From: Candidatus Gastranaerophilales bacterium
GTDB taxonomy: Bacteria > Cyanobacteriota > Vampirovibrionia > Gastranaerophilales > Gastranaerophilaceae
Direction: 5' to 3'
DNA: 64,000 nucleotides
NCBI GenBank assembly: GCA_944323625.1
Contig: CALUTD010000005.1
Span: 1-64,000, forward strand
Each line of letters begins with the position of its first letter. Position 1 is the stretch's first letter. Under the pieces are notes generated by a model, which saw nothing but the letters and a program-made list of their open reading frames with translations, had not been told where the DNA came from and made no database searches. The translations under genes were made by a program, and so were the position numbers. Positions 6,208 to 57,382 of the stretch are shown in pieces.

Positions 6208-6738
6208 TTATTCCAAATTTAAATTTTTTATATTTTCAACATCTTTTGGACTGCCCCAGTTATATTCATATAAACCTTGATTTAGATACTTATGAAAAGA
6301 CGAATATTTCCAATCTTTTACATTTTTTACAAAGCCATGTTTAACCGGATTGTAATGTATATAATCAATTTGATTATTTAATTCTTTTTCAGATATAATT
6401 GTATGTTCAAAAAATCTGCGTTGAAAAACACCTTTTTCCCCTTTATTCACATAACCGTATGTTGGGGTTTCTACTATATCATTATAATTTTTAGAAAAAT
6501 AATATTTAATTGATGTAACTATTTTAGGATATTCATTAATATTTTCAGGATTTATGATAATATGAATATGATTTGGAAGAACACAGATTGCAATAATTTC
6601 AAATTTAAAGAAATCTTTAGCATTTTTAAAAGCCTTACGTAGAAGTTCTATATTATTTATAAATATATTTCTTCTATTGTAAGCAACAACAATTAAATGC
6701 ACACAACTATTTGAAATAAAAACTCTTCTATAATTCAT
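6208..6738 (-). CDS. REP-associated tyrosine transposase (RAYT)
   Basis: A 176-residue Y1-type HUH nuclease. The HUH motif is HIH at 57-59 within LPNHIHIII. The probable catalytic tyrosine is Tyr126 in IDYIHYNPVKHG, the usual RAYT signature, and the N-terminus MNYRR also fits this family. RAYTs are single-copy, domesticated relatives of IS200/IS605 TnpA that mobilise short REP palindromes. The gene is flanked on both sides by GTTGGG-type palindromes, which are almost certainly its substrates; related copies lie at 7617-7844 and 56902-57046. No accessory TnpB is present. The frame is intact. Confidence 0.9.
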   Translation of the reverse strand: MNYRRVFISNSCVHLIVVAYNRRNIFINNIELLRKAFKNAKDFFKFEIIAICVLPNHIHIIINPENINEYPKIVTSIKYYFSKNYNDIVETPTYGYVNKGEKGVFQRRFFEHTIISEKELNNQIDYIHYNPVKHGFVKNVKDWKYSSFHKYLNQGLYEYNWGSPKDVENIKNLNLE

Positions 6739-8054: not shown

Positions 8055-8832
8055 TTAAATTCTATGCGGGTAATCATCTTTAATTTCCCAACCGTCTATT
8101 TGTATTAAATATGTGCAGGTTTTTACTAAACCATCGCCAAGTCCACCAGCGTTAATATTTGATTTACACCTTTCTATATAATAAGACCTATCATGTTTTC
8201 TTTTTTCTTCATTCCAGCTTAAAGTATTAACATGTGGCAAAGAATAAATTAAATCTTTATCTATATCATCATTGCCCAATAAAATATAAAAAGGGAAAAT
8301 ATCTCTACCCCACCGATTTGGCCCCTTTTCACCATTGACATCTATTATGGGATTATCCATAGCATCAATAGGAAACAAAATTGAGCCATCATTTAAATAT
8401 ACCAACATTGTGCTTTCATAGAAGAAAGGAATTTGACTGCTAATATCGTTGTAATATTTCTGATTATCACTCGCTTTTTCTATCTTCATATAGCTTAGAT
8501 ATTTTCCATAATATTTTTCAAACCACTTTTTATCTTTTTCGAAATCAGAAACAAGCCATGTCTCCCATTCATAACTCGGCATACCCCATTCTGCTTCTGA
8601 TAATTTTACGGCATTAGATAATGTTGAATAAAATTTTTTCAATTTTGAAGCAGTTTCTGTCTTTCTATGGTTTGCCATAACAACAGGTACGGTTATTGCG
8701 GCAATAATACCTATAACAACCAAAGTAATTAATACTTCTGCAAGTGTAAAAGAATGTAATTTAAGAGAGAAAGAGTTTTTAAAATTTAACTCATTTCTAC
8801 CCCCCCCCGTGGCGATTTAATAATTTTTTCAT
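8055..8832 (-). CDS. Pseudopilin with poly-G tract, out of frame as written
   Basis: The body encodes a class III prepilin-type protein. Its cleavage and hydrophobic segment read SFTLAEVLITLVVIGIIAAI, followed by a helix, an NGEKGPNRWGRD block, two late cysteines and a WEIKDDYP end. It is closely related to the proteins at 27740 and 37929. The only start with a ribosome site (GGAG, 8 nt spacing) is the ATG at 8832. From there the frame reads MKKLLNRHGGG and stops at TAG because the G tract (8800-8808) has 9 bases. With 8 or 11 G it would continue as GGGRNELNFKNS into the SFTLAEV leader and give about 258 residues. I therefore read it as a phase-OFF copy of a slipped-strand contingency gene; a sequencing miscount or simple decay are alternatives. 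If expressed, it would be processed by a prepilin peptidase and inserted in the inner membrane or a pilus. Confidence 0.7.
8800..8808 (-). repeat. Poly-G tract (9) in pseudopilin 5' end
   Basis: Nine G on the minus strand (C on plus), preceded by ATCGCCAC and followed by TAG. In a sequence this AT-rich such a run is unlikely by chance. It sits 9 codons into the reading frame, where a change of one base switches the pseudopilin on or off. Confidence 0.85.
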
Positions 8833-8880
8833 AATTTTATCTCCTTTTTTGCTTATATAATTATATATTCCCTCTTTATT
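8833..8880 (-). promoter_or_regulatory. Leader promoter and RBS of poly-G pseudopilin
   Basis: On the minus strand, GAATATATAATTATATAAG carries a TATAAT -10. It is followed by AAAAAAGGAGATAAAATT and then ATG. The same layout (-10 block, GGAG or GGGG, ATG) precedes the poly-G tracts at 27585 and 51506. Confidence 0.65.
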
Positions 8881-27494: not shown

Positions 27495-27596
27495 GTTTTA
27501 TTTTTTTATTTGTAAAAATAGAAAATATATGATAATATAAATTTTAAAGGAGATAATATTATGGATAAATCTTTAATATGCTACGGGGGGGGGTAA
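27495..27596 (+). promoter_or_regulatory. Poly-G leader cassette with short ORF MDKSLICYGGG
   Basis: AATATATGATAATATAAATT (a TATGATAAT -10 region), AAAGGAG, then ATG 27561. The frame reads MDKSLICYGGG and stops at TAA 27594 directly after nine G. The 20-nt promoter word is identical at the 51506 locus on the other strand. With 8 or 11 G the frame would run about 32 more codons but does not reach the pseudopilin downstream; with 10 G it stops at once. It is therefore a leader without an in-frame body, either decayed or acting as a small regulatory unit. Confidence 0.6.
27585..27593 (+). repeat. Poly-G tract (9) in leader ORF
   Basis: Nine G preceded by TTTAATATGCTAC and followed by TAATTTAA. 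The 5' flank matches those of the other four tracts (compare CTAAATATGCAC at 38681 and TTTAGTCGCTAC on the minus strand at 51519). Confidence 0.85.
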
Positions 27597-27644: not shown

Positions 27645-27680
27645 AAGAAAATATTTCATAGAAATATTTTCTTTGTTTTT
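27645..27680 (+). terminator. Terminator between poly-G leader and pseudopilin
   Basis: A 13-bp perfect stem AAGAAAATATTTC/GAAATATTTTCTT with a 3-nt loop, followed by TGTTTTTG. It would end transcripts from the leader before the pseudopilin gene, whose own -10 could be TATAATAGAA further on. Confidence 0.6.
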
Positions 27681-27739: not shown

Positions 27740-28387
27740 ATGAAAAATATAAAATCATTTACTTTAGCGGAAGTACTAATAACACTTGTTGTTATAGGTA
27801 TTATTGCTTCAATTACAGTGCCAATGGTTATGGCAAATCATAAGAAAACAGAAACTGCGTCAAAATTAAAAAAGTTTTATTCAACACTTACAAATGCCGT
27901 TAAATTGTCGGAGATTGACCAGGGGATATCTTCAAGAGAATGGGATTATAATAATCTTTCCAATGTTGAATTTTTTGAAAAGTATCTTGCAAAATATATT
28001 AGTTATGAAAAACTTGGAGAGGTTGAATATAGAGTAATAGAAGGTTCTACCTATTATGCTGATCATGCTGCATATTTAAATGACGGAACAATTATTTATT
28101 TTGATATGCCGGGATTATATACTTACGATGTAAACGGAGAAAAAGGACCGAATGAATATGGCAGAGATATGTTTGGATTTGAACTTCTTGGTACTTATTC
28201 GGATTTAGTCCATTATGATGTTTCAAATAAAGATGTAGTTGTTCCTGAAATGTGTCCTGATAAAGCTGAAAATGAAGATTGTTCAAGAAGCGGTTTAATA
28301 AATTGGTGTAAAATGGGTAATTACTGCACGCAGCTAGTTCAAACTGACGGATGGGAGTTTAAAGATGATTATCCTAAAAAATTATAA
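27740..28387 (+). CDS. Pseudopilin-like protein
   Basis: A 215-residue class III prepilin-type protein. The leader is MKNIKS, cleaved before FTLAEVLITLVVIGIIASI, with Glu5 of the mature form present. A long helix (MANHKKTETASKLKKFYSTL) leads into a globular domain with the VNGEKGPNEYGRDMF block. Four to five cysteines precede QTDGWEFKDDYP. It is closely related to the genes at 8055 and 37929. ATG 27740 is chosen over an upstream TTG because it gives a normal short leader; the ribosome site is weak (GAAGG). No pilus ATPase or secretin is in this window. It lies just downstream of a poly-G leader and a terminator. Confidence 0.82.
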   Translation: MKNIKSFTLAEVLITLVVIGIIASITVPMVMANHKKTETASKLKKFYSTLTNAVKLSEIDQGISSREWDYNNLSNVEFFEKYLAKYISYEKLGEVEYRVIEGSTYYADHAAYLNDGTIIYFDMPGLYTYDVNGEKGPNEYGRDMFGFELLGTYSDLVHYDVSNKDVVVPEMCPDKAENEDCSRSGLINWCKMGNYCTQLVQTDGWEFKDDYPKKL

Positions 28388-37928: not shown

Positions 37929-38558
37929 TTATAATCTAATCGGGTAATCATCCTTAATTTCCCAGGCATCGTAAAGTTGTAGAATATAAGAACATGTTAG
38001 CCCCAAGGCCGGATCTTCTGCACAGTCATTTATAAAATCCTCTCTAGTATTGTTTTTTTTCTTATAATTATAAAAACTACTGTTAGGTAACATATATTCA
38101 AACTGATCTCTGCCATGAGCATTAGGACCTTTTTCACCATTAATATCAATAAAAAATGTAATATCATTATTGTCAAAAGATAACAACATACCATCATCCA
38201 ATACTACACAATAGAGCCCTATACAGCCTTTTGGGAAATCATCTGAAAAGTAATCTCTGTATTCTTTGTTATATTTAATATATTTTGCAAGGTATTTAAT
38301 AAAGTATCTGCCATCACCGCCATAGTCATAACCGTCATCCATATCACTTACATCCCATTCTTCAAGAGGTACACCCCATTCTGTTTCCGCAAGTTTTATT
38401 GCGTTTTGTATTGTAGAATTGAACTTTTTTAACTTTGCAGTTGTTTCACTTTTTCTGTGGTTAGCCATAATAACCGGTACTGTAATTGCAGCAATAATAC
38501 CTATAATTACAAGAGTTATTAAAACTTCCGCTAAAGTAAATGATTTTTTCTTTTTCAT
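37929..38558 (-). CDS. Pseudopilin-like protein
   Basis: A 209-residue prepilin-type protein. Leader MKKKKS is followed by FTLAEVLITLVIIGIIAAI and then MANHRKSETTAKLKKFNSTI. It has the NGEKGPNAHGRDQF block and a C-terminal pair of cysteines before LYDAWEIKDDYP. It is close to the proteins at 8055 and 27740 and looks like a recent duplicate; unlike the 8055 copy its frame is intact and it begins with a short leader behind GAGGTG. It is the end-to-end neighbour of kdsB (7 nt, convergent). A poly-G tract lies 134 nt upstream on the opposite reading. Confidence 0.85.
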   Translation of the reverse strand: MKKKKSFTLAEVLITLVIIGIIAAITVPVIMANHRKSETTAKLKKFNSTIQNAIKLAETEWGVPLEEWDVSDMDDGYDYGGDGRYFIKYLAKYIKYNKEYRDYFSDDFPKGCIGLYCVVLDDGMLLSFDNNDITFFIDINGEKGPNAHGRDQFEYMLPNSSFYNYKKKNNTREDFINDCAEDPALGLTCSYILQLYDAWEIKDDYPIRL

Positions 38559-38670: not shown

Positions 38671-38702
38671 ATGCAACTAGCTAAATATGCACGGGGGGGG
38701 GG
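38671..38702 (+). repeat. Poly-G tract (10) with ATG-led short frame
   Basis: Ten G at 38693-38702, preceded by CTAAATATGCAC. An ATG at 38671 would read MQLAKYARGGG and then about 17 hydrophobic residues to a stop, but no ribosome site lies before it. The 5' flank is related to that at 27585. It lies in the 221-nt gap between cysK and the pseudopilin gene; the rest of the gap shows only the hairpin at 38617. Confidence 0.75.
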
Positions 38703-51419: not shown

Positions 51420-51528
51420 TTTACAAAATGTTAAATTAGGGTATAATATTAATATAAATTTATAAGGAGGAATTATGAAGAATTTGCAAAATCTAATGCA
51501 AAATACCCCCCCCCCTTGTAGCGACTAA
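51420..51528 (+). pseudogene. Promoter and 5' end of an interrupted gene
   Basis: TTTACA (51420-51425), 16 nt, TATAAT (51442-51447), TAAGGAGGAATT, ATG 51475. The frame reads MKNLQNLMQNTPPPCSD and stops at 51528, running into ten C at 51506-51515. Other tract lengths also stop quickly. The strong expression signals lead nowhere, which suggests that the gene body was cut off here. Its likely 3' part is at 51667-51819. Confidence 0.6.
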
Positions 51529-57220: not shown

Positions 57221-57382
57221 ATGGCAGATAGTCTGATTATTGACAATGTTTTAACAAAACAAATTAAGCAAAGCTTATTTGGTTTATTATTTTCAAAAAC
57301 TGAACCGGAAACGGTATTAGTCAATTATATGCCTAAATCCTCCGTTTTTTTGTCATTGTACCCCCCCCCGACACTCAATTAA
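57221..57382 (+). CDS. Short ORF ending in poly-C tract
   Basis: A 53-residue frame: MADSLIIDNVLTKQIKQSLF, then GLLFSKTEPETVLVNYMPKS, then SVFLSLYPPPTLN. The end crosses nine C at 57361-57369, so a change of tract length would alter the tail. The ribosome site is weak. It may be the start of a gene cut by the tract (compare 51475) or a real small protein. No family known. Confidence 0.4.
   Translation: MADSLIIDNVLTKQIKQSLFGLLFSKTEPETVLVNYMPKSSVFLSLYPPPTLN

Follow-up and report, generated by a model that had tools for sequence, protein, structure and literature searches.

In the 64 000-nucleotide stretch of Gastranaerophilales DNA analysed here (the window), a start codon with a good ribosome site leads into a run of nine G residues at position 8800 and then at once into a stop codon, and an intact prepilin-like reading frame lies behind it. 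Is this frame silent, is it misread in the assembly or is it switched by changes in the length of the tract? Our preferred reading, with a probability of about 0.85, is translational phase variation: 8800 would be a contingency locus, and the genome would hold more than 80 of this kind. The contingency-locus reading, which had been put forward in an earlier note on this DNA, is supported by about 120 runs of G8–G11 in the genome, most of them in one layout before prepilins; by near-identical paralogues that are unlike in tract length and a syntenic pair of ON and OFF orthologues; and by intact ORFs under purifying selection behind OFF tracts and the occurrence of tracts in glycan-modification genes. 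The genome-wide count also rules out treating 8800 as a lone locus. The best-known cases of phase variation through slippage at homopolymers come from pathogens of mucosal surfaces; in the present case such variation would be a leading trait of an uncultured cyanobacterial lineage that does not photosynthesize and is found in animal guts, acting on one pilin family of at least 80 genes per genome.

Reading frames and protein at the 8800 locus

Positions 8832 to 8797 of the minus strand read ATG AAA AAA TTA TTA AAT CGC CAC GGG GGG GGG TAG, which bears out the start, leader, nine G and TAG described in the earlier note; the tract (8800–8808) occupies codons 9–11 of the leader, and not the 'fourth-to-ninth-codon region' given there. 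The start codon and the leader MKKLLNRH (8809–8832) follow a pattern common to most tract-linked prepilins of the genome. Upstream on the same strand lies a Shine–Dalgarno sequence, AAGGAG (8841–8846, read from the sequence and kept over 70 loci), the GGAG of which stands 8 nt upstream of the ATG and makes a good ribosome site. Further upstream, an A/T-rich stretch (8853–8870) with the family consensus ATATATGATAATATAAAT is a putative −10-like part of a promoter, and a generic sigma-70 scan returned no pick at this stretch. Beyond the tract, a 15-codon linker, RNELNFKNSFSLKLH (8754–8798, minus strand), is translated solely from in-phase tract lengths and leads into the prepilin-like ORF (8055–8753, minus strand), which starts SFTLAEVLITL, ends in DGWEIKDDYPHRI and has no usable start of its own. 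An alternative in-frame start as the explanation at 8800 is ruled out, since the interval from the tract to SFTLAEVLITL contains no ATG, GTG or TTG in the prepilin frame; over 58 family loci there are 12 candidate start codons of this kind, only two of them ATG.

Direct translation of the G7–G12 alleles agrees with the earlier prediction that G8 or G11 opens the prepilin frame. The computed products are 258 and 259 amino acids for G8 and G11, and 14, 11, 15 and 12 amino acids for G7, G9, G10 and G12, respectively, so that a repeat in the 5′ coding part, with a unit length not divisible by three, opens the frame at two lengths and closes it at the others. With G9, the locus is OFF in the assembly. 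That long G runs are unexpected in this DNA was likewise confirmed: the window holds 12 (overlapping) matches to G8, compared with 0.10 expected from dinucleotide shuffles, an excess of about a hundredfold. Five of its G/C runs measure 9–10 and none measure 6–8, and the run-length distribution is thus detached from the background. The matches from a search for orthologues of the locus within the genus were all partial and covered mostly the prepilin motif, and none comprised tract and pilin together. Two genes away from the tract, at 6208–6738 on the minus strand, the window encodes a Y1_Tnp transposase of the IS200-like/REP-associated type (Pfam PF01797).

The protein had been called a pseudopilin. 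Its membership of the type IV (pre)pilin superfamily is supported by the conserved Glu and the hydrophobic helix in SFTLAEVLITL and by TIGR02532 (prepilin motif), which is above its cut-off in all three window proteins tested; the more specific name is not supported, as the model of the type II secretion (T2SS) major pseudopilin GspG (TIGR01710) scored 28.4 bits against a cut-off of 88.85 and no other equivalog model reached its cut-off. With the N_methyl model (PF07963) the protein encoded at 8055 lies just below the threshold (19.9 versus 21.2 bits), and two window paralogues lie above it. The predicted structure (mean pLDDT 79.8) combines an N-terminal helix of 53 residues (4–56) with a C-terminal domain of mixed type; among solved chains a type IV pilin aligns best, a weak match with a Z score of 5.0, and Foldseek gave no match in the PDB at E ≤ 0.001. 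In view of the passing TIGR02532 score, the failing GspG and equivalog models and the weak structural match, 'prepilin-like' is the safe name. Across genera, the family carries FTLAEVLITL at the N-terminus and DGWEIKDDYP at the C-terminus with a variable middle, and its Pfam matches are N_methyl and DUF6613.

Tract-linked genes across the genome

The 2 Mb genome contains 119 runs of at least nine G and two C-preceded runs of eight, about 120 in total, and 118 of the longer runs were read in context from the stretches around the tracts. The lengths measured are G8 in two cases, G9 in 63, G10 in 48 and G11 in seven. The base before the tract is C in 100 of the 119 runs and the base after it is C in none of the 119. 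A prepilin motif adjoins at least 85 tracts; almost all of these lie on the strand of the pilin, and a handful are inverted, with poly-C on the coding strand. Before most tracts the unit is near-identical and consists of the promoter-like region (ATATATGATAATATAAAT), AAAAAGGAGATAAAATT, an ATG, about seven codons and YAC. Conservation starts no more than about 60 nt before the ATG and extends little past the pilin stop codon, and each unit therefore looks like a single-gene unit.

Four further tracts lie in the window. The G9 tract at 27585–27593 (plus strand) follows the same leader (27561–27584) and is separated by stop codons from a prepilin-like gene with its own ATG (27740–28387, plus strand, starting MKNIKSFTLAEVLITL), which lies 146 nt after the tract; between the two stands a 13-bp hairpin followed by a T-rich stretch (27645–27673, plus strand) that resembles an intrinsic terminator. 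The G10 tract at 38693–38702 (plus strand) is inverted, so that the coding strand carries poly-C, and lies about 135 nt upstream of the prepilin gene at 37929–38558 (minus strand). At 51506–51515 (minus strand) an orphan promoter and leader with G10 has no prepilin behind it and stands about 150 nt before a gene for a TPR protein. The G9 tract at 57361–57369 (minus strand) falls outside the pilin family; at a length of ten, a 144-amino-acid ORF of the plus strand would span it.

The locus at 27585 belongs to a second class of about 21 loci, in which the same leader and tract are followed by stop codons, a hairpin with a T-rich tail (−10 to −14 kcal/mol) and a pilin that starts at an ATG of its own; L061, L062 and L107 are examples elsewhere in the genome. 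In the OFF frames of this class the leader ORF usually ends 3 or 8 nt past the tract, 40 or more nt before the hairpin; the ON-frame ORF mostly reaches the hairpin and ends within or past it. Judged from this arrangement, the second class is a possible phase-variable attenuator, and its pilin may have a promoter of its own.

Tracts are also found in genes for an acyltransferase, a glycosyltransferase, a member of the UDP-glucose/GDP-mannose dehydrogenase family, FdtA and a radical SAM/SPASM protein, and in genes for long proteins that carry the prepilin motif and repeats. Glycan and acyltransferase genes are customary targets of contingency loci. Two of the long proteins (L044 and L077) carry, after a prepilin-type N-terminus, repeats such as AIGFNALSS and AIGNQAL that are reminiscent of the head repeats of trimeric autotransporters, and both have G tracts of their own. 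In three loci (L175, L200 and L212) the linker between tract and motif encodes in-frame peptides such as CHPEFISGSHIEIPKQVRNDKK and NCHPELVS, which look like the translation products of palindromic repeat elements inserted in the pilin leader. Inverted tracts, which occur at L013, L047, L052, L054 and window position 38693 and at L109–L114 in a relative, keep the flank YAC-Gn-TA on the G strand. No viral contig bearing the leader was found.

Tract length, expression state and competing explanations

Tract length changes the ON/OFF state between close relatives in this family. Near-identical paralogues, taken as pairs with no more than four mismatches over the first 50 nt downstream of the tract, are unlike in tract length in 12 of 33 pairs. 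In a pair of syntenic orthologues, L125 has G10 and is ON with 301 amino acids, and L175 has G9 and is OFF with 15; the syntenic DNA is 84–89% identical, with three mismatches in 100 nt around the tract. These lengths are compared between paralogues or species rather than between clones. A loss of mismatch repair, which would favour slippage, was not found: each of the 12 genomes tested has MutS. Loss of MutS was rejected as the cause on this ground, and the point counts against the preferred reading.

The genes behind OFF tracts are intact and under purifying selection. Among the tract-linked ORFs, 79 of 83 are 159–245 amino acids long and four are truncated, and the median dN/dS of tract-linked pilins is 0.19 (14 usable close pairs). 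Fifty-eight loci belong to the open class, defined by the lack of a stop between tract and prepilin motif in the ON frame, and only five of these are ON in this genome, together with three of 25 loci in named Gastranaerophilales genomes and three of 21 in other genera. The pooled fraction, 11 of 104, compares with an expected one third (p of about 1e-7, a significance that is overstated as paralogues are not independent). In a small, post hoc sample of nine non-pilin tract genes from the same genome, four are ON and five OFF. The strong excess of OFF states needs an extra assumption: either selection for sparse expression or leaky OFF alleles.

We propose that every gene of the family is equipped with a promoter-like region, a ribosome site and a start codon of its own, from which some eight leader codons lead into a tract of 8–11 G. 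Slipped-strand mispairing at replication, which we infer as the cause of length change, would add or remove a G. At one length in three the ribosome would pass the tract into the linker and then the prepilin-like protein, and at the remaining lengths translation would usually end soon after the tract. With independent switching, and with lengths that peak at 9–10, at which most members are OFF, the cell would make few members at any one time. The pilin-like surface of this gut commensal would then be diverse and would change; that genes switch within a population, that the products lie on the surface, that expression is sparse and that the cell benefits are all inferred. A broader proposal, offered tentatively, is that species of Gastranaerophilaceae carry tens to about 100 single-gene prepilin units per genome as a stochastic few-of-many repertoire, in which the most frequent lengths are OFF, species differ through gain and loss of units and the tract of the second class sets the entry of the ribosome into the terminator hairpin.

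The alternative that survives best, which we nevertheless regard as unlikely, is recoding or transcriptional slippage, in which RNA polymerase or the ribosome would slip on the G run, OFF lengths would still yield some pilin and no change in DNA length would be needed. This would account for a family that is mostly out of frame in the assemblies and yet intact and selected; a +1 shift at GGG-TAG (G9) or a −1 shift on the G run (G10) would reach the pilin frame, and slippage at homopolymers has a precedent in bacteria, on A/T runs (PMC1088944). A fixed recoding signal would not be expected to vary in length among near-identical paralogues and orthologues as these tracts do, and the almost even division of the nine non-pilin genes fits random states. 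Since G9 and G10 alleles need opposite shifts, no single programmed shift serves the family, and a single programmed frameshift as the sole account is ruled out.

Slightly less probable still is a function of the tract in DNA recombination, as a site of cassette exchange or a G-quadruplex-type initiator, instead of or besides the frame switch. Single tracts in unrelated glycan genes and an open tract-to-motif frame kept in 58 loci speak against it, whereas several features of the units speak for it: leaders are more similar than their pilins, some pairs share only the upstream flank and others only the downstream flank, and the YAC-Gn-TA flank is the same in both tract orientations. Moreover, a roughly 1-kb pilin unit found in one genus (L239, 1214–2190, compared with L240–L243 and others) is an insertion between two conserved genes that are close together in sister species lacking the unit; units thus come and go. 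No unit ends or target duplications were recognized around this unit, and the lack of conserved ends and duplications speaks against inversion or exchange via the YAC-Gn-TA flank, a possibility raised by the occurrence of tracts in both orientations.

That the family is a decaying set of silent pilin genes is very improbable: only roughly a tenth of the members are in frame, truncation affects four tract-linked pilins and the window holds one orphan leader, but the intact ORFs, the low dN/dS and the absence of ON-frame stops between tract and motif in 58 loci are not what relics would leave. Least credible of all is an error of assembly or sequencing that masks a constant in-frame length, an artefact conceivable in assemblies from platforms prone to homopolymer errors but ruled out by lengths that are mixed (8–11) and differ among loci, by recurrence of the layout in about 110 independent genomes and by unbroken ORFs of at least 150 amino acids over 90 A/T runs of at least seven (25 of at least eight) in the window, as random mistakes would not leave nine in ten loci out of frame with A/T runs clean.

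Known systems and spread over the order

The mechanism of the preferred reading, phase variation by tract length, is already known; its scale, family and lineage appear undescribed. In Bifidobacterium breve, replication slippage in an intragenic G tract gates a sortase-dependent pilus, and mixtures of lengths were found by maximum-depth sequencing (PMC9187656). The likeness lies in G-tract slippage (which in Gastranaerophilales is deduced from sequence) gating pilus expression in a gut commensal, and the difference in two sortase-pilus clusters of a Gram-positive organism compared with more than 80 type IV prepilin-like genes per genome here (PMC9187656). The vlhA genes of Mycoplasma gallisepticum also form a large surface family with one repeat per gene and few members expressed, as would be the case here, but their GAA repeats lie in the promoter and act on transcription, with one repeat number thought to be active, whereas the present G tracts lie in coding sequence and would act on translation (PMC6258824). 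The Campylobacter phasome likewise includes dozens of poly-G contingency genes per genome, spread over many homology groups, whereas most of those found here belong to one prepilin family (PMC6321876). A genome paper on termite-gut members mentions only genes of the pilA–D type (PMC5877343), and our literature search found no paper joining the Gastranaerophilales lineage with phase variation.

If the preferred reading is true, one strain could display very many pilin combinations, which bears on the persistence and adhesion of these commensals and on their encounters with host immunity and phages. The opa family of Neisseria comprises about a dozen genes at most, in which CTCTT repeats in leader-peptide codons provide a translational switch. 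Like opa, the present family is a multigene surface family with a repeat in the leader codons of each member; unlike opa, it uses G tracts, encodes prepilins, belongs to another phylum and has several times more genes. Gene callers will split or overlook most of these tract-linked genes, and existing metagenome reads allow a direct test of phase variation.

The layout, searched for as a ribosome site, an ATG, 14–36 nt and G9, was present in 110 of 286 sampled genomes of the order (mostly MAGs), in 24 of 50 genera and nearly always in the window's own family, compared with near zero for a reversed-pattern control. Seven tract-rich genomes have 59–146 N_methyl matches versus 6–15 in five tract-free relatives, and over these 12 genomes the numbers of tracts and prepilins are correlated (Spearman 0.87). 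The leader sequences differ from genus to genus.
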